A stretch of DNA of 38,857 nt from the NCBI GenBank assembly GCA_028822585.1, contig JAPKDL010000019.1, positions 1 through 38,857 of the forward strand, read 5' to 3'. Made by a program: the position numbers and the translations under genes. This document shows, piece after piece, positions 1,949-11,081 of the stretch. This DNA comes from Alphaproteobacteria bacterium. Lineage in GTDB: Bacteria > Pseudomonadota > Alphaproteobacteria > UBA8366 > GCA-2717185. Within the stretch, counting starts at the first letter, position 1, and each line of letters starts with the position of its first letter. The notes beneath the pieces are model-generated. The model saw only the letters and a program-made list of their open reading frames with translations. It made no database searches and was not told the DNA's origin.

Positions 1949-2977
1949 CTATAGTCCCTGTTCCACCTTCGGCATGACGTCTTCTTTGAATCTCGTCAGG
2001 TTCTCTAGCACCAGGCTTTGCGGCATGCCGATCCAGTGAAAGCCAAGGATCAAGACGTTGACGCCAAGACGTTTCCCATGCGCGATGACCTGTTCTGCAA
2101 CTTCGTCGGGCGAGCCCAGTATAAACCGGTCTTCCAGTAATTCGTCATAGGCGAGGTCTAAATTGTTGTCGCCTTCGGGCATTGCTTTGTCTTGGCCCCA
2201 TTGGTGATAAATTTTATATTTCGCTTCGAGAAATGGCTTCGCCTGCCGGATGGCTTCCTCTCGGCTGTTGGCGACAAAGACTTCGCGCGCCGCCGGGAGT
2301 TCGTCGGGGAAAGGTTTGTCCGCGTCGTCCAGCGCGCGTTTGTACAATTCAAGCTGTTGTTCAATGGTGTCCAGGCGCTGGTGCGGGTTGATGAACCAGG
2401 CGTCCGACATTTTCGCCGCGCGTTTTATAGCAGCGTCGGCGTTGGCGCCAATCCAGATCGGTGGCATGGGCTTTTGTTGTGGTTTTAGGGATAGGCGAGT
2501 TTTATCCAATTCGAAATGAGACCCCTTCATGGACACTTCGTCTTCGGTCCATAGGCGTTTGATCGCGTTTAGGTTTTCTTCGAAGCGCGAGACGCGGTCT
2601 TTCTGCGTCGTGCCAAAACCCTTGAATTCAACCTCACGATACCCCAGACCGCAGCCGAAGGTCAGCCGTCCGCCCGACATGACATCGATGCTGGCCAGTT
2701 GTTCGGCCATATCCAGGGGCTTGTGCAACGATAAGAGCGTCACCCCGGTCAACAGGCGCATGTTCGGCGCTTCCGACATGACCCGGCCTAGGAACGGTAG
2801 TTGCTGGAATTCCTGCAACGGATAGCCTGCTAGATGGGAGCTTTTCATCAAGATGTCGTAGCCCAATGCGTCAGCGACACGCGCCTGTTCCATCTGTTCG
2901 GCGAAGGCGACATTCATATCAGCGCCGGCGGCGTATTGGGTGCGCATGCCGATGCCGTATTTCATTTTTCGAGCCAT
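1949..2977 (-). CDS. LLM-class flavin-dependent oxidoreductase (copy 1)
   Basis: A 342-residue member of the luciferase-like monooxygenase (F420/FMN, TIM-barrel) superfamily. Family blocks include DVMSGGRLTFGCGLGYREVEF, the RFEENLNAIKRLW helix, PPIWIGANADAAIKRAA and a late LGSPDEVAEQVI. Members use reduced FMN or F420 to oxidise organic substrates; the substrate cannot be read from sequence. It is the last gene of a minus-strand run and lies 13 bases after the next LLM gene. By eye it is more than half identical to that neighbour over its full length, so the pair looks like a tandem duplication. Both share LSLHKPL, FGTTQ and WGQDKAMP. Annotation beyond the superfamily is not supported. Confidence 0.88.
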   Translation of the reverse strand: MARKMKYGIGMRTQYAAGADMNVAFAEQMEQARVADALGYDILMKSSHLAGYPLQEFQQLPFLGRVMSEAPNMRLLTGVTLLSLHKPLDMAEQLASIDVMSGGRLTFGCGLGYREVEFKGFGTTQKDRVSRFEENLNAIKRLWTEDEVSMKGSHFELDKTRLSLKPQQKPMPPIWIGANADAAIKRAAKMSDAWFINPHQRLDTIEQQLELYKRALDDADKPFPDELPAAREVFVANSREEAIRQAKPFLEAKYKIYHQWGQDKAMPEGDNNLDLAYDELLEDRFILGSPDEVAEQVIAHGKRLGVNVLILGFHWIGMPQSLVLENLTRFKEDVMPKVEQGL

Positions 2978-2990
2978 AATCAGATCCTAT

Positions 2991-4016
2991 CTAAACGCCT
3001 TGCCGGACTTTCGGGAAGACTTCTTCGGCCAGCAAATGCATCGCGTCCAAGGTTTGATTCTGCGCCATGCCGGGCCATTGCATGCTGGCAATAATGTGGT
3101 TGGCGCCGGTGCGTTTGTTCAATTTTATCACCTGTTCCGCCACATCGTCCGGTGACCCAATCAGGAACCGGTCGCGTTGCAAATCTTCAAAGGCCTGGCC
3201 CAAATCATTGTCGCCGTCGGGCATGGCCTTGTCCTGACCCCATTCGTGATAAACTTTGTATTTAAGCGATAAATAAGGTTCGGCGATACGGAAGGCTTCT
3301 TCGGTGGTTCGCGCTACGAATACCTCGCGGCGGATCGGAAATTCGACTGGGAACGGTTTGTCGTATTCATCCAGCGCGCTTTTATAGATGTCCAATTGAC
3401 GTTCGATGGTGTCAATGCGGACATGCGGGTTCATGTACCAGCAATCGCCCAATCGCGCGGCGCGCCGAATCGCTGGATCTGCGTCGGCGCCAATCCAGAT
3501 GGGGGGGTGTGGCCTTTGGATCGTCTTGGTATTGGCTGACGCGTCCATTAATTCGAAATGGGACCCCACCATGTTGACCTTTTTTTCGGTCCACAACCTT
3601 TTGATGGCCAGCAAATTTTCTTCAAAGCGCTGGACGCGTTCCCTTTGCGTGGTGCCGAACGCCTTGAATTCGACCTCGCGATAGCCGAGCGCTGCGCCGA
3701 AGATCATGCGACCGTCGGACATGACATCCATGGTCGCGATTTGTTCGGCGATCTCCAATGGCTTATGCAGCGACAACAGGACGATCCCGGCGTTGAGCCG
3801 CAAATTCGGCGCTTCCGCCATGACGCGGGAGAGGTAAGGAATTTGCTGGAAATCCTGAAGCGGATAGCTGCTGTAATGCGACCCTTTGGTCAGGCTAGAG
3901 AATCCCAGCTTGTCGGCGGTGCGGGCCTGTTCCATCAACTCCTTGAAACGCACGCGAATGTCGTCTTTTTCTTCGAACTGCCCCCGGGTCATCAACCCGA
4001 ACTGTATGTCGGTCAT
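2991..4016 (-). CDS. LLM-class flavin-dependent oxidoreductase (copy 2)
   Basis: A 341-residue luciferase-like monooxygenase family protein, colinear with its downstream paralogue. It shows DVMSDGRMIFGAALGYREVEF, RFEENLLAIKRLW, PPIWIGADADPAIRRAA and IGSPDDVAEQVI. The two copies differ most at the N-terminus and in the insert after GSHFEL, a region that often shapes substrate choice in this fold. It starts 15 bases after the stop of the enolase-superfamily gene, so cotranscription is likely. The pair may act on related substrates, or one copy may be a diverged specialist; sequence alone does not decide. FMN or F420 dependence is also not resolved. Confidence 0.88.
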   Translation of the reverse strand: MTDIQFGLMTRGQFEEKDDIRVRFKELMEQARTADKLGFSSLTKGSHYSSYPLQDFQQIPYLSRVMAEAPNLRLNAGIVLLSLHKPLEIAEQIATMDVMSDGRMIFGAALGYREVEFKAFGTTQRERVQRFEENLLAIKRLWTEKKVNMVGSHFELMDASANTKTIQRPHPPIWIGADADPAIRRAARLGDCWYMNPHVRIDTIERQLDIYKSALDEYDKPFPVEFPIRREVFVARTTEEAFRIAEPYLSLKYKVYHEWGQDKAMPDGDNDLGQAFEDLQRDRFLIGSPDDVAEQVIKLNKRTGANHIIASMQWPGMAQNQTLDAMHLLAEEVFPKVRQGV

Positions 4017-4031
4017 AGTGTGTCTATCCGC

Positions 4032-5114
4032 TTATTTAACAACGTGGTTTGAAAGGATTTCCGGTTTGAACCGCAGGCCATGACCGGGTTTTTCCGGCGC
4101 GGTGATGAAGCCGTTGACTGGTTTCGCCCAGTCGTCCCACACATCGCTCATCATGCCCATGTCTTCGATGATCAGCCCGTTCGGGATCGACGCCATCAGT
4201 TGAATCATCAATTCCGGATACAGATGCGGTGCCATCTGCAAGCCCCAGGTGTCCGCGATGGCGGCGATTTTGCGCAAATCGGTCAAGCCGCAGCGCATGA
4301 CGTCGGGTTGCAGGATAGGGATTTTCGGGTTTTCGAAGAACGGCTTCAGATCATAGCGGGTGAAATGGCTTTCTCCGCCGACTACGCGGGTGTCCAAGGC
4401 GTCGGCGACACGGAAATATCCGGCGAAGTCGTCTGGCATGACTGGTTCTTCCAGCCAGTAAATATCGTATTCCTGTAATTTTTTGCCCATGATGATGGCT
4501 TTGTCGGCGGTCCAGGCCATGTTGACGTCGACCATGATGTCTACCTCTGGACCCACCGCTTCGCGAACCCGGCGCACATGATCCATGTCTTGGGCGTCGG
4601 TCCAGGTATGGCCAACCTGCATCTTGATGGCGGTGAATCCTTCGTCGATGAAGCGCTTGGCTTTTTCCACCATGCGGTCACCGCCAAGGCCGCGCCAGAC
4701 GCCGGAGCCATAGACCGGAACCTTGTCTGTATAATGCCCCCACAGGCGGTGCAGCGGCATGTTAGCTTTCTGGCCAACGGCGTCCCACAGCGCCACATCA
4801 ATGATCGACAACGCCAGCAATTGCGCGCCGCCGCGGCCATCCGCCAGGGTGGATTTCCACAGGTCGCGCCAGATGCCTTCGACCTCGGTGGCGTCGCGGC
4901 CTAAGATGCGTGGGATCATTAATTCCTCCAGACACGCCTTGGTCGTGCGGAAGCCTTCGCGCAGATAGAGTTGGTAGCCCATGCCGATAATGCCAGATTG
5001 CGTTTCGATTTCCACAACCAGAATATCCCGGTCCCGGTCATACCCTGCCTGCAAGGCCGGTTGTTCGACGAAGGGCACGGTGAGCAACGTAATCTTGACG
5101 TCTTTGATGATCAT
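4032..5114 (-). CDS. Mandelate racemase/muconate lactonizing enzyme family protein (enolase superfamily)
   Basis: About 360 residues if translation starts at the ATG at 5114, which has GAGGT eight bases upstream. A longer in-frame ORF extends to 5258, but its extra N-terminus looks non-native. Metal ligands of the enolase fold are visible: D196 (MVDVN), E222 (WLEEP) and E248 (GGESH). The D271/H297 dyad (QPDV, APHLYPE) is also present. The usual KxK pair is K164-M-Q166, so the second lysine is glutamine. Numbering happens to match mandelate racemase closely. With one base face lost, an acid-sugar dehydratase-like reaction is more likely than racemisation; that is inference. It sits between an MFS transporter and two LLM oxidoreductases, which suggests a small catabolic operon. 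Confidence 0.88.
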   Translation of the reverse strand: MIIKDVKITLLTVPFVEQPALQAGYDRDRDILVVEIETQSGIIGMGYQLYLREGFRTTKACLEELMIPRILGRDATEVEGIWRDLWKSTLADGRGGAQLLALSIIDVALWDAVGQKANMPLHRLWGHYTDKVPVYGSGVWRGLGGDRMVEKAKRFIDEGFTAIKMQVGHTWTDAQDMDHVRRVREAVGPEVDIMVDVNMAWTADKAIIMGKKLQEYDIYWLEEPVMPDDFAGYFRVADALDTRVVGGESHFTRYDLKPFFENPKIPILQPDVMRCGLTDLRKIAAIADTWGLQMAPHLYPELMIQLMASIPNGLIIEDMGMMSDVWDDWAKPVNGFITAPEKPGHGLRFKPEILSNHVVK

Positions 5115-5212: not shown

Positions 5213-6433
5213 CTAATGAATACTGGCGCGTTCCTTGTAGCGGAACTTCAACACGCACAGGCCGACGGCGACGATCCCCGCCGTCACCAGCCAGCCATCG
5301 GCGAATCGCCCTGTCATATCGACCACCGCGCCAAACAGCGGTGGGCCCGTCATGGCGCCAATCGACGTGCCGATCATGATACAGCCAATGGCCGAGCCGG
5401 TTTGCGTCCGAGGGACCGATTCAACCGCAACCGTTTGCAGCACCGAGGCATAGGCGGCGATCGTCATGCCCAGCCCAACGGCCAGTGCCATGCCGATTAT
5501 GATGCCCCAACTGGGCCCGACAACCGCCATCAACGCCAGGAATATTGAGGCCGCCGTGCAGATCAACAGGGTCAATATCTTGCGGCGGCCCTGGAACATC
5601 GTGTCGGCGATATATCCCCACCCGATGCGCCCGAACGCGCTGGCGGCTTGGGCTGCGCCCAGGACGATGCTGGCAGTTTCCTGACTGGCCAGAGCGACGT
5701 CACGCATGAACAGCGTCAGATAGGTGAAGAAATTATACTGGCCGATGTTGAAGATTCCACTGGAGGTCGCCAACATCAGAAAGTTCCGGTCTTTAGCCAA
5801 TTGGATGACGCCGCTGAGCACGCTGGGCTTTTCCACGCCGTCGTCTGCCTTTGCGACGTCGCGCGGTTCAATCAGATACAGGCAGAGCAGACCACCCGCC
5901 GTGGTTAACACCGAAATGATCAGCATGATGTCGCGCCAATCGATCAACACGGCGAGCGCCAGGGTGCCCGCTGCCAAGACGCCCCCAATGGGCACGCCGG
6001 TTTGTTTGACGCCCATTGCGGTCGCCCGCCTTCCTTGCGGAAACCATTCCAGTACGCCACGCGCCGTCGCTGGGTTCATGATGGAATACCCCCAGCCCAT
6101 CATCAGCAACGCGAACAGCGCCATGGCGAACCCGTCCGCCGCATAGAGTATGGTGCCGCCCAGGGCCAGAATTAAATGGGCCGAGATCAACGCCCGGCCC
6201 ACGCCCACCCGGTCTACCAGCACGCCAGCAGGAATGGCGCCGGTAACCTGTCCGGCGGAATAGGCGGTCATCAACAGGCCGAATTGTGTGAAGGATAAAG
6301 CCAAATCGGGACGGATAACCGGCCCCAGCGCCAACACGGAGATACTATGCAGCGACCCCAACGCATGCGCCATCGTCAACAGGGATAGTCGCGCCTGCCA
6401 GGACTTGGCACTCACGCCGGTTTTAGATTCCAA
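5213..6433 (-). CDS. MFS transporter, 12 membrane segments
   Basis: A 406-residue major facilitator superfamily protein. It has about twelve hydrophobic segments in two halves and a loop rich in charged residues in the middle (EPRDVAKADDGVEK). Motif-A-like text follows TM2 (GVLVDRVGVGRALI), and the second half has a related segment (WGYIADTMFQGRRKI). The TTG at 6433 overlaps the end of bioA by 11 bases and has AAGG about nine bases upstream; a GTG at 6415 is an alternative start. Biotin uptake usually uses BioY, so the neighbouring enolase and LLM genes are a better clue to substrate: uptake of a small organic acid or similar compound. Substrate is not readable from the sequence. Confidence 0.88.
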   Translation of the reverse strand: MESKTGVSAKSWQARLSLLTMAHALGSLHSISVLALGPVIRPDLALSFTQFGLLMTAYSAGQVTGAIPAGVLVDRVGVGRALISAHLILALGGTILYAADGFAMALFALLMMGWGYSIMNPATARGVLEWFPQGRRATAMGVKQTGVPIGGVLAAGTLALAVLIDWRDIMLIISVLTTAGGLLCLYLIEPRDVAKADDGVEKPSVLSGVIQLAKDRNFLMLATSSGIFNIGQYNFFTYLTLFMRDVALASQETASIVLGAAQAASAFGRIGWGYIADTMFQGRRKILTLLICTAASIFLALMAVVGPSWGIIIGMALAVGLGMTIAAYASVLQTVAVESVPRTQTGSAIGCIMIGTSIGAMTGPPLFGAVVDMTGRFADGWLVTAGIVAVGLCVLKFRYKERASIH

Positions 6434-7739
6434 CGTTGACGCCTTGGAGGGTCGACCATTCGCCGATCACCTTGACCATGGCGTTGGTCAAATGGGTCAG
6501 GTCGTCCAGTTCGATGACGAATGGCGGCATGACATAGATGATGTCGCCAAACGGGCGGATCCATACGCCTTCTTCCACGAAGCGCTGCTTCAACCATTCG
6601 ACCCGCGTTAATGTATCGACCTGCACGACGCCAATGGCGCCTTTCGCCCGCACGTCGATAACGCCGGGCAGTGCGCGGCACGGTTCCAGCGCGTTGCGCA
6701 AATGTGTTTCGATGGCCGCGACTTGTTCAAGACGTGGTTCTGATTCAAACAAATCTAGCGAGGCGTTGGCGGCGGCGCAGGCCAGTGGATTGGCCATATA
6801 GGTCGGGCCGTGCATCAGGGCGGCTTCGGGTTTGTCGGATTGGAATGCGGCGAAGATGTGCTCGCGCGCCACCGCGGCGGACAGCGCCATGGTCCCGCCG
6901 GTCAGCGCCTTGGACAAGGTGATGATGTCGGGTACGACGCCTGCTTCTTCACATGCGAACATCGATCCGGTGCGGCCAAACCCGGTCATGATTTCATCCA
7001 GGATCAACAACACCCCGTGACGTTCGCCGCATTCCGCGATGCGCGCCAACACGGTGGCGTCGTGAAATTTCAAGCCGCCCGCGCCTTGCACCAACGGTTC
7101 CAGAATGATCGCAGCGCAGTCTACGGCGTTTTGTGTCAGAAACGACTCGAACACCTCAAACTCTGCATTGGTTCGGGGCAGGGAAACAATATGTTGTTCC
7201 GCCAATAATCCCTTGAACAGCGCGTGCATACCTTCTTCCGGGTCACAGACCGACATCGCGCCGATAGTGTCGCCGTGATAGGCGTATTGGAATGCGATGA
7301 ATTTACGCCGCGTGGTGTTTCCCTGGTTGATCCAGTATTGCACCGCCATTTTCATCGCCACTTCGACTGACACCGACCCAGAATCGGCGAAGAAAACGCG
7401 GTTCAAATCGCCGGGCAGCATATCCGACAACCGGCGCGCCAGCGTTAGCGCGGGCGGGTTCACCAGGCCACCGAACATCATATGCGGCATTGTCGTCATT
7501 TGGTTGGCGATGGCGGTGCGAATATGTGGGTGATTGTAGCCATGGCAGGCCGTCCACCAGGACGACACGCCGTCAATCAGTTCCCGGCCGTCGGCCAGTT
7601 TTAACCGCACACCATCGGTCGCGGCGACCGCCAGCGGCGCGGGCGTGGTCTGCATCTGCGTATAGGGTAGCCAGATATGATCAATTCCGGCGTTGTACCA
7701 GTCCGGGTGCCCGTCCGGTGAGTTGGAGCCGTGGGTCAC
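6423..7739 (-). CDS. bioA: Adenosylmethionine-8-amino-7-oxononanoate aminotransferase (BioA)
   Basis: A class III aminotransferase of 438 residues, normal for BioA. It transfers an amino group from S-adenosylmethionine to 8-amino-7-oxononanoate, giving 7,8-diaminononanoate. Visible features are IWLPYTQM near residue 22, [13 protein letters not shown] (59-71) typical of Bio[15 protein letters not shown] with PLP-binding D248, and [10 protein letters not shown] with Schiff-base K277. The stop overlaps the following MFS transporter start. The start lies five bases after the bioB stop, so bioB and bioA are almost certainly one transcript. The SSWW motif and the bioB/bioF/bioD context separate it from other class III aminotransferases. 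Confidence 0.96.
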
Positions 7740-7744
7740 GGCCT

Positions 7745-8797
7745 TTAATCCAGCGCGTGCAGGCCCAACCGGTCGAACAGGGCGGCGTCATGGTCCGGCG
7801 TTGGGTTGTTCGTGGTTAACAGCTTCGGCCCGACAAAAATTGAATTCGCCCCCGCCATGAAGCACAGCGCCTGGGTTTGATCGTTCATCGATTCCCGGCC
7901 CGCCGACAGTCGCACAAAGGAGTGCGGCATGGTGATGCGCGCCACGGCGATGGTGCGGATGAATTCAAATGCGTCCAGGTCGCCGGCGTCGCCGCCCGAG
8001 GAATCGCCAACGGGTGTGCCTTCGATCTTCATCAGCATGTTGATTGGCACGCTTTCGGGATGCTGGGGCAGATTCGCAAGGGTCAAGATCATGCCCGACC
8101 GGTCGCGCCGGGATTCGCCCATGCCGACAATGCCGCCGCAACATACGTTGATGCCTGCGTCGCGCACATGGGCCAAGGTGTCGAGCCGATCCTGGTAGGT
8201 TCGGGTAGTGATGATGTCACCGTAGAATTCTTCTGAGGTGTCGATGTTGTGGTTGTAGTAATCCAATCCAGCGTCGTTCAACTTCGTAGCCTGTTCCGGC
8301 GTCAGCATGCCGAGCGTCACGCAGGTCTCCATGCCCATCTCGCGGACACCTTCGATCATTTCGCACACCTTACCCAGATCGCGATCTTTCGGGCTGCGCC
8401 ACGCAGCCCCCATGCAATACCGCGTCGATCCAGCGTCCTTGGCGAGACGAGCTTCCGCCAGTACCGCATCCACGTCCATCATTTTTTCCGCCTTCACGGG
8501 AGCATCGTTATGGGCGCTTTGGGAACAATACCCGCAGTCTTCGGGACATCCGCCGGTCTTGATGCTCAAAAGAGTCGACAACTGAACCGCATTGGGGTCG
8601 AAATGCGCCCGGTGTATCGTCTGTGCTTGAAACAGCAAATCGTTGAACGGCGACGCAAACAACGCTTCGATCTCTCCCACGCTCCAATCATGACGAAGGC
8701 CGTCATCGGATGACGTCCGCGTTCCGGGTTCTAAAGCGCCCTGTAAGGGGACTGCGGAATGAAGGGCGTCAGGCGTGTCGTGGGTCTCAATACTCAT
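7745..8797 (-). CDS. bioB: Biotin synthase (BioB)
   Basis: A radical-SAM enzyme that inserts sulfur into dethiobiotin. With the ATG at 8797 (AAGGAT about ten bases upstream) it has 350 residues. An in-frame extension to 8875 encodes a hydrophobic, non-family N-terminus and is unlikely. The SAM cluster motif is C84-x3-C88-x2-C91 ([15 protein letters not shown]). The YNHNIDTS block, the [10 protein letters not shown] segment and [15 protein letters not shown] are all standard BioB. It is the first gene of the minus-strand run and diverges from bioF across 436 bases, which probably holds the promoters for both arms. Confidence 0.97.
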
Positions 8798-9233
8798 CAG
8801 TGAAAATCCTTGGTGACAGGGCCGCACGAACTTAACCGAGCGCGCAGCAAAATATAGCAAAGCAAAGCAGAGCATAAGCCCATGGCCGGGTTGGTCAAGA
8901 ACGGTGGGAATGTGGGGAGCCTAAATCACTAAGGAAGCTTTATAGTTCCCCAGATCCACACAGAGTGTCGAGTCGATATAAAATCGCGGTTTTTCTATTT
9001 TCACGGCGTCGGCTTGTTTGTCCGTCTTAATATTTATCGTTATAGGGTAAATTCGAGGCGACATTGTCTTTCGCCTCTGCGGTGTCACGACGCCCATTTC
9101 GTCCTGCAACCTTATACCAATAATAGGCTTGCGCATAGCTTCGTTCGGCGTACATCGCGCGCCGCGTTGACTCATAACCCTCGTTGTCTCAGTCTCGGCA
9201 GCATTGGAACCATAGGGAATAATTAAGGCCGTC
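8798..9233. promoter_or_regulatory. Divergent bioB/bioF intergenic region
   Basis: This 436-base gap separates the two biotin transcripts and should contain both promoters. It is more AT-rich than the genes; the stretch around 9028-9050 (taatatttatcgttatag) is the most promoter-like. I looked for the alphaproteobacterial BioR operator (TTATMKATAA); the closest text, TTATCGTTATAG, does not match it. A 104-codon minus-strand ORF (8921-9235) fills much of the gap. It has no recognisable family and its start overlaps the bioF start, so I do not call it. Confidence 0.5.
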
Positions 9234-10400
9234 ATGAAGTCTCTGGATGAATACGCCCGCGCGAAATTGTCGTCGATGGAGCAACGTCAGTTGCGCCGCA
9301 CCTTAGTGGAAACCGACCGTCAGGATGGCGCCATCGCCTATCGCGATGGGCGGCGCATGGTGTCGTTTTCGTGCAACGATTATCTGAACCTGTCGCACCA
9401 CCCGGATGTTATTCGTGCCGCGAACGAGGCGAATGTGCGCTATGGGGTTGGGTCCGGCGCATCGCGGTTGATTACCGGCAACCACCCACTGTTTCGCGAC
9501 TTGGAATTGCGACTGGCGCGGTTGAAGGGCGCAGAGGATGCGTGCGTGTTTGGGTCCGGTTATCTGGCTAATATGGGCATCATTCCCACCTTGTTGGGCC
9601 CTGGTGATTTGATTTTGGCCGATGAATTGAGCCATTCCTGCATCCTGGCGGGGAGCGATATCAGCAAGGCGGACACGTTCATTTTTCGCCACAACGATCT
9701 GGACCATGTCGCTGCGCTGCTGGCGGAACATCGGGCCGGGCATTTGCGTGCGATGATTGTGACCGATGGGGTGTTTTCGATGGATGGCGATATGGCACCG
9801 GTATCGGCCCTTGCGGATTTAGCGGAGGAATATGACGCCTGGTTGATGACCGACGATGCGCATGGGGTCGGCGTTGTGGGCGACGGGCGCGGCAGCACCC
9901 ACGCCCTGGGCGCTGCGGGGCGCGTGCCGTTGCAAATGGGCACGTTGTCCAAGGCCATCGGCGGGTATGGCGGGTATCTTTGCGCCGACAAGACGGTGAT
10001 CGATCTCATGAAGACGCGCTCTCGGACGTTCATTTATTCCACTGGCTTAGCTCCCGCCGCCGCCGCCGCCGCCATCGCCGCAATTGATGTCATTGAGACT
10101 GAACCGGATTACGTGGCGCTGCCGCTAGCCAAGGCATCATTATTTGCAAAACTGGCGGGATTGCCCGCGCCGGAGAGTTGTATCGTGCCGATTGTGTTAG
10201 GCGATCCGGCGCGCACTTTGGCGGCGTCGAAACTGCTGGACGACGCTGGGTATATTGTCACTGCGATCCGCCCGCCGACCGTGCCGCCAGGCACCGCACG
10301 GCTGCGGTTCACCTTTACGGCGGGTCATGACGATGTGGATGTGCGGCGGCTGGCTGACTTAGTCGTTACCCGGATTTTGGCGTCTCGGGATATGGCTTAA
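9234..10400 (+). CDS. bioF: 8-amino-7-oxononanoate synthase (BioF)
   Basis: An alpha-oxoamine synthase of 388 residues. It condenses a pimeloyl thioester with alanine to form 8-amino-7-oxononanoate. Family features are SFSCNDYLNLSHHP (44-57), GVGSGASRLITGNH (71-84), the PLP-binding TDDAHGVGV (206-214) and LSKAIGGYGGY with Schiff-base K240. The ATG at 9234 has TAAGG about eight bases upstream. It starts the plus-strand biotin arm, and bioD follows three bases after its stop. The biotin setting and length separate it from 5-aminolevulinate synthase and 2-amino-3-ketobutyrate CoA ligase, which share the fold. Confidence 0.96.
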   Translation: MKSLDEYARAKLSSMEQRQLRRTLVETDRQDGAIAYRDGRRMVSFSCNDYLNLSHHPDVIRAANEANVRYGVGSGASRLITGNHPLFRDLELRLARLKGAEDACVFGSGYLANMGIIPTLLGPGDLILADELSHSCILAGSDISKADTFIFRHNDLDHVAALLAEHRAGHLRAMIVTDGVFSMDGDMAPVSALADLAEEYDAWLMTDDAHGVGVVGDGRGSTHALGAAGRVPLQMGTLSKAIGGYGGYLCADKTVIDLMKTRSRTFIYSTGLAPAAAAAAIAAIDVIETEPDYVALPLAKASLFAKLAGLPAPESCIVPIVLGDPARTLAASKLLDDAGYIVTAIRPPTVPPGTARLRFTFTAGHDDVDVRRLADLVVTRILASRDMA

Positions 10401-10403
10401 GCA

Positions 10404-11081
10404 ATGGCGACTTGGTTTGTCACTGCCACGGGCACTGATATCGGCAAGACCGTTGTCACTACAACGTTGTGTCGGGCGTTGAGCCAGCAAGGGTTGTTGG
10501 TGCGGGCTCTGAAGCCGTTGATCAGCGGGTATGCGCCGGAAGATATGGCCGACAGCGACAGCGGTCAGATATTGGCCAGTCTGGGGGAGGCGCCCAGCGA
10601 TTCGGCGATTGCATCGATTACTCCCTGGCGTTTCACGGCACCGTTGTCGCCGGACATGGCGGCGGCGCGCGAAGGCCGGGAGATTGATTTTGACGCGCTG
10701 GTGGATTTTTGCGCGTCCGGCGAAGAAGACGTCTTGTTGATCGAAGGGGTCGGGGGCGCGATGGTTCCGTTGACGGACCGGGAAACCGTTCTGGATTGGA
10801 TTCTGGCGGTCGGCGCGCCAGCATTGGTGGTCGCGGGCAGCTATCTGGGGACGATCAGCCACACCCTGACGACAGTCGCGGCCATGCGGACACGTGGCGC
10901 GGTGGTCGCTGCCGTAGTGATTAGCGAGTCGGTGGAAAGTCCGGTTCCGGTGGATGAGACGGTTGAAACGTTGCAACGGTTTTTGGGCACCGTTCCGGTG
11001 TATAGTATGGCGCGGGCCGACGCCCCCAGGGCGAGCGACGAATTGGTCGCGCATTTGACGAAACAAGCCATAGGAGGATGA
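10404..11081 (+). CDS. bioD: Dethiobiotin synthetase (BioD)
   Basis: A 225-residue P-loop ATP-dependent carboxylase-type enzyme. It closes the ureido ring of 7,8-diaminononanoate with CO2 to give dethiobiotin. The N-terminus FVTATGTDIGKTVVTTTLC contains the BioD P-loop with K15 and T16. K37 in RALKPLISGY and VLLIEGVGGAMVPLT (about 112-126) are also typical. It begins three bases after bioF with no strong ribosome binding site, suggesting translational coupling. Its stop region, GGAGGATGA, supplies the AGGAGG for the next gene, so the DUF427 gene is probably coupled to it. Confidence 0.95.
   Translation: MATWFVTATGTDIGKTVVTTTLCRALSQQGLLVRALKPLISGYAPEDMADSDSGQILASLGEAPSDSAIASITPWRFTAPLSPDMAAAREGREIDFDALVDFCASGEEDVLLIEGVGGAMVPLTDRETVLDWILAVGAPALVVAGSYLGTISHTLTTVAAMRTRGAVVAAVVISESVESPVPVDETVETLQRFLGTVPVYSMARADAPRASDELVAHLTKQAIGG

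Follow-up and report, generated by a model that had tools for sequence, protein, structure and literature searches.

A conserved clade of mandelate racemase-like proteins with glutamine in place of the second catalytic lysine, probably acid dehydratases

What chemistry should be expected of an enolase-superfamily protein in which one of the two catalytic lysines of mandelate racemase (MR) is replaced by glutamine? The question is raised by a gene at positions 4032..5114 of a 38,857-nucleotide stretch of an alphaproteobacterial draft genome, the whole of which we call the window; this gene, its codons, and the three neighbors discussed below all lie on the minus strand. An earlier note, made from the letters of the DNA, had proposed that the product carries Gln166 in place of the second lysine of the K-x-K motif, that its metal ligands and Asp/His dyad are intact, and that an enzyme with a base on one face only would favor dehydration over racemization. 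The gene encodes 360 amino acids, and an AGAGG stretch, ribosome-binding-like as judged by eye, stands 7 bases before its ATG. Membership in the MR_MLE group is indicated by matches to both Pfam domains (MR_MLE_C, 1.4e-56; MR_MLE_N, 1.1e-14), by three acidic ligands, and by the fold of an AlphaFold2 model built from 47 sequences (mean pLDDT 95.8, pTM 0.93).

The substitution was confirmed by alignment. When the protein was aligned by phmmer with MR (1mns), the segment AIKMQVG fell over AVKTKIG without a gap, placing Gln166 opposite MR Lys166, where barrel strand 2 (residues 162-166 of the model) ends. The catalytic lysine is thus not shifted, a possibility that the earlier note had itself held against its claim. 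The codons of Lys164-Met165-Gln166 occupy 4617..4625. The remaining catalytic residues are in place, as had been claimed: the metal ligands Asp196 (4527..4529), Glu222 (4449..4451) and Glu248 (4371..4373), and the dyad residues Asp271 (4302..4304) and His297 (4224..4226), the latter being the proposed sole base/acid. Glu317 is also present. Compared with the classical form of the MR subgroup, the protein has the Asp/His dyad, but its barrel strand 2 ends in K-M-Q rather than K-x-K.

Homologs were gathered from three sources: (i) 289 genomes of the class, of which 22 matched at E 1e-60 and 17, including the window's own, carried K-M-Q; (ii) 59 relatives, which supplied 14 further K-M-Q sequences; and (iii) a scan of GTDB contigs, in which 25 of the best 80 loci among the matches listed were K-M-Q. 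The contig scan used two peptide patterns, one of which (YGSG..RG) contains Arg141 (discussed later) and therefore biased the scan for that residue, although not for Gln166; the 30 sequences from the whole-protein searches, other than the window's own, are free of this bias. The resulting K-M-Q clade comprises 56 sequences, 53 of them different, that are about 40-93% identical to the query, and Lys164, Gln166, Asp196, Glu222, Glu248, Asp271, His297 and Glu317 are kept in all 56. Desertibaculum subflavum and a SAR116 cell supply two of the distant members. A tree was built from 125 of the 127 sequences, the aberrant rows L009 and L010 being excluded; in it the K-M-Q rows form one side of a branch with SH-aLRT support of 100 and no other motif inside. 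Such retention makes chance no issue and argues against a lone mutation: as read from these sequences, loss of the second lysine is fixed across a whole clade, beyond one residue in one protein. One member of the clade (L048) is identical in protein sequence to that of a genome of the window's order (G305).

Among the 62 rows that are neither K-M-Q nor K-T-x, 46 have Lys at position 166, 12 have Arg, two have His and none has Gln. A second, rarer group of seven MR-type sequences reads K-T-Q (L004, L078, L081, L083, L114, L118 and L193), with E-D-V at the second ligand, and a K-T-F sequence, L087, groups with them. L004 is a paralog in the window's own genome (G000:C186:10343-11215) that ends at a contig edge. 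Constrained trees were calculated from 79 of the 127 rows, after removal of 34 K-M-Q rows (out of 56) and of 14 rows that were aberrant or sat on long branches. A clade uniting K-M-Q with six K-T-Q rows while leaving out L087 was rejected (p-AU 0.0002); the joint clade that includes L087 was not (p-AU 0.564), so that a single origin of K-x-Q is possible. At E 1e-75 or better two of 398 genomes in a phylum-wide sample matched (the window's own and G066), and the K-T-Q search at E 1e-110 found two of the 289 class genomes (the window's own and G056). Among plasmid records, 201 had a match at E 1e-40; identity stayed below 60% in every one, the best among the matches listed being 36%. No K-x-Q structure was found among the best five or fewer PDB alignments listed per search, where the motifs were K-M-K (2ovl), K-I-K (5xd7), K-L-R (3bjs), K-L-K (2pp0) and K-F-G (3sjn). 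A literature search judged by title turned up nothing on point for Gln replacing the catalytic Lys, although an absence of this kind does not establish that the substitution is new to the literature.

Racemization by MR requires both of its bases, the (S)-specific Lys166 and the (R)-specific His297; that an enzyme with a base on one face would favor dehydration follows from the mechanisms of the superfamily. For L-rhamnonate dehydratase, a syn-dehydration that draws on the dyad His alone has been proposed. We postulate that the K-M-Q protein is a working enzyme of a conserved MR-like subfamily that uses His297 as its single base in the syn-dehydration of a hydroxy acid, a reading to which we assign a probability of roughly 45%; in broader terms, it probably dehydrates an organic acid rather than racemizing one, and the substrate is most likely a sugar acid or a related hydroxy acid. 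In this mechanism, Mg2+ held by Asp196, Glu222 and Glu248 would bind the substrate carboxylate, and Lys164 would contribute to stabilizing the enolate. His297, with Asp271 tuning it, would remove the alpha-proton on one face and go on to assist the departure of the beta-hydroxyl from that same face. Gln166 would merely form hydrogen bonds or shape the pocket, and the reaction would yield a 2-keto-3-deoxy acid.

Conservation across the clade, the SH-aLRT value of 100, the ungapped position of Gln166 and the confident model support this dehydratase reading, as does the ranking of NCBIfam models. The best-scoring equivalog is L-talarate/galactarate dehydratase (NF047820; 201.7 bits, with the cut-off at 500), and the top seven models are all sugar-acid dehydratases; all seven scores lie far under their cut-offs, and in the equivalog search as a whole no cut-off was reached, which weakens the reading. 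The L-rhamnonate dehydratase model scored 121.1 bits against a cut-off of 393. Further support comes from a study of cultured SAR202 bacteria, in which MR-family paralogs are tied to dehydration in non-phosphorylative sugar-acid catabolism (PMC10444878).

Structural comparison placed the model nearest to four solved folds (Foldseek and VIA-align; VIA Z 45.5-48.5). The best match by both sequence and fold (32-33% identity) is a Streptomyces coelicolor protein, 2ovl/3ck5, which differs in having K-M-K and is named merely a 'putative racemase'; a close homolog with an assigned racemase activity, which would have spoken for racemization, was looked for and none turned up. MR itself (1mns, 1mdl and 4hnc) has a like fold (Z 47-48) at 25% identity; Lys164 is aligned, and the D/E/E ligands and Asp/His dyad are also MR features, but its second base is Gln in every K-M-Q member. 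L-talarate/galactarate dehydratase (2pp0, 2og9/3cb3) is close in fold (Z 45.5-46.6) but only 26-29% identical in the fold alignments, with K-L-K in 2pp0. The K-M-Q clade warns against automatic 'mandelate racemase' labels on such genes, and its Gln, standing for a well-known catalytic lysine in every member seen, offers a clean natural experiment for telling reactions that require two bases from those that do not.

The remaining close fold, 3,6-anhydro-L-galactonate cycloisomerase (ACI), weakens the dehydratase reading, because the nearest structure with a named activity (5xd7; 27% identity, Z 48) is a cycloisomerase and not a dehydratase. ACI was a top-three entry in the fold searches and in two sequence searches. 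His297 might abstract the alpha-proton while an internal oxygen, of an ether or an ester, departs from the beta position, the enzyme acting as a cycloisomerase or forming or opening a lactone, as ACI or galactarolactone cycloisomerase does. The 5xd9 chain has Asn where 5xd7 has the His that aligns with His297, consistent with a catalytic role for that His. Conversely, ACI retains K-I-K, and no agar- or lactone-related gene was recognized in the 30 neighbors scanned, nor any gene context common to the two; we regard cycloisomerization as unlikely, although it survives better than the other alternatives.

Arg141 (4692..4694), just after barrel strand 1, bears on whether a second base is truly gone. 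Among the 125 tree rows, column 141 is Arg in 64 of the 67 rows that have neither Lys nor Arg at position 166, and in none of the 58 rows that do. The 64 include all 56 K-M-Q and all seven K-T-Q/K-T-F rows; as judged by eye, L193 has this Arg as well. So conserved a residue leaves room for a substitute second catalytic group: Arg141, perhaps with Gln166, could stand in for Lys166 as the second acid/base and permit two-base chemistry, whether in an epimerase, a racemase or an anti-dehydratase, and to that extent the dehydratase reading is weakened. Against this, the counts reflect few evolutionary changes (4 and 3), the association is not significant (independent pairs, median p 1, a test powerless at these numbers), and three of the rows in which 166 is neither Lys nor Arg (L110, L006 and L007, with K-F-G, K-M-T and K-I-H) also do without Arg141. 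In addition, the loop around column 141 is gapped in the alignment of the K-T-x rows, and the contig scan selected in part for this very residue. On sequence comparison, the link between Arg141 and loss of Lys166 is a lead only, and we think it distinctly unlikely that these are two-base enzymes.

Gene context might be expected to narrow the substrate. The earlier note had named as partners an MFS transporter and two LLM flavin oxidoreductases, in no pathway known to it, and Pfam bears out the families: one MFS_1 protein (5213..6433; start codon uncertain) and two Bac_luciferase proteins, LLM1 (2991..4016) and LLM2 (1949..2977), the latter 59% identical to LLM1. The four genes are co-directional in the order MFS, enolase, LLM1, LLM2, with gaps of 98, 15 and 13 bases. 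The MFS protein scores best in NCBIfam against the D-galactonate transporter subfamily, which lends the dehydratase reading some support although the score is under the cut-off (107.3 versus 395 bits). As an argument about function the partnership is weak, since the order occurs only in the window's genome and two congeneric genomes (L034 and L035), and related LLM arrays elsewhere have no adjoining enolase gene. The order was absent from the other 108 loci searched (53 K-M-Q and 55 not), a result that is only partly informative for the 28 of those 53 K-M-Q loci with 1.5 kb or less on each side. Eighteen wider stretches around K-M-Q genes contained no LLM pair; in one (L141, the same genome as L061), a single LLM gene lies on the opposite strand, some 3.6 kb downstream. 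The MFS/LLM partnership is mostly a lineage-specific gene order. Upstream of the MFS gene, the window carries biotin-synthesis-like genes at 6423-11081 (bioA, bioB, bioF and bioD, named by eye).

Assigning a function from context across the clade was tried and abandoned, as no neighboring family occurred within 4.5 kb in more than seven of 44 neighborhoods. These comprise 43 loci and the window, with at least two genomes entered twice (L048/L130 and L061/L141); genes were called by codon usage, simpler ORF callers being misled by antisense frames in this high-GC DNA. Pfam matches of 30 chosen from the 349 called neighbors were scattered (SelB, dCTP deaminase, UbiA, HMGL/LeuA type, acyl-CoA dehydrogenase, hydantoinase and others), and three of the 30 had none. 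Among the neighbors surveyed in this way no conserved sugar-acid pathway genes were seen, which again weakens the dehydratase reading. So do the hydantoinase genes beside some relatives. Hydantoinase A lies upstream of the K-M-Q gene in five loci, directly in L132 and L133 and with one gene between in L049, L128 and L129; of these, L128 and L129 also have a hydantoinase B gene 30 bases downstream. On this evidence the enzyme might work alongside hydantoinase/oxoprolinase-type enzymes on an acid derived from an amide or lactam, its MFS and LLM neighbors being incidental. The arrangement is confined, however, to five of the 44 neighborhoods, which belong to two sister genera and apparently all to the window's family, and adjacency is less telling where a genome holds 5 to 37 hydantoinase A genes (12 genomes counted); we consider this reading improbable.

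The part of the partner claim that probably does not stand concerns the LLM proteins as ordinary flavin enzymes. LLM1 orthologs elsewhere form tandem arrays of two to five LLM genes. Of 29 genomes searched, 16 had LLM1 matches, and eight of these (G291, G292, G296, G299, G302, G305, G308 and G314) have an F420 ligase gene at a distance of 4-6 kb from the array. In six others (G000, G289, G290, G294, G295 and G297) the ligase gene is on a different contig, in G293 it is more than 300 kb away, and in G298 (family f1) none was found over the cut-off. By Pfam, the G314 locus encodes CofE, CofD, CofC and a radical-SAM/CofH protein. Arrays of LLM1/LLM2 orthologs stand beside an operon of this composition at L168 6984-18303, L171 2415-11167 and L167 8121-16283, its genes being named by Pfam for L168 and by matched gene sizes for the other two. 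The window's genome has a CofE-CofD-CofC-radical-SAM/CofH-type operon as well, on another contig (L192 967-6519), and a gene for an Fno-like F420-NADP oxidoreductase. The proximity of such arrays to cof genes suggests that LLM1 and LLM2 are probably F420-dependent luciferase-like hydride transferases, and makes the cofactor of these neighbors directly testable. The best NCBIfam model for both is TIGR03619, below its cut-off. In a review of F420, luciferase-like hydride transferases are described as widespread in F420 producers, and alphaproteobacterial producers are predicted (PMC8498797). An MFS homolog (55-56% identical) lies 4-7 kb from the LLM arrays in L166 and L167, with other genes between and no enolase gene.

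A bolder combination of these observations would make K-x-Q with Arg141 a new arrangement within the MR group, in which an Arg at the end of strand 1 replaces Lys166, and would place it, in the window's genus, in an F420-linked route: uptake by the MFS protein, F420-dependent oxidation of a hydroxy compound or lactol by the LLM proteins, and dehydration by the enolase-superfamily enzyme. If true, this would tie non-phosphorylative acid catabolism to F420 in a lineage of Alphaproteobacteria that encodes F420 biosynthesis and is rich in LLM proteins, but we regard it as a long shot. That the gene is a pseudoenzyme or decayed copy, as the absence of one canonical catalytic residue might suggest, can hardly be credited, given that the remaining catalytic residues are kept throughout so divergent a clade, the reading frame is open and the predicted fold is confident.

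Returning to the genome as a whole, Bac_luciferase-family matches in the window's 3.8-Mb draft (G000) number 73, and MR_MLE_C matches over the cut-off number 17, some of the latter partial and one with an in-frame stop. A broken paralog may lie at G000:C190:2166-2585, where the MR_MLE match is partial and contains an in-frame TAG. Across 39 genomes (the window's own and relatives), LLM matches number at least 10 per genome in families f1 and f160, with no more than 43 scored in any one genome, and 0-2 in f2 and f161. An F420 ligase over the cut-off was found in 20 of the 39, all of them in f1 and f160, and is thus confined to the two families with the LLM expansion. The numbers of LLM and MR_MLE paralogs in the window's genome resemble the expansions of FMNO (LLM) and enolase paralogs described for SAR202 Chloroflexota (PMC6946804, PMC10444878).
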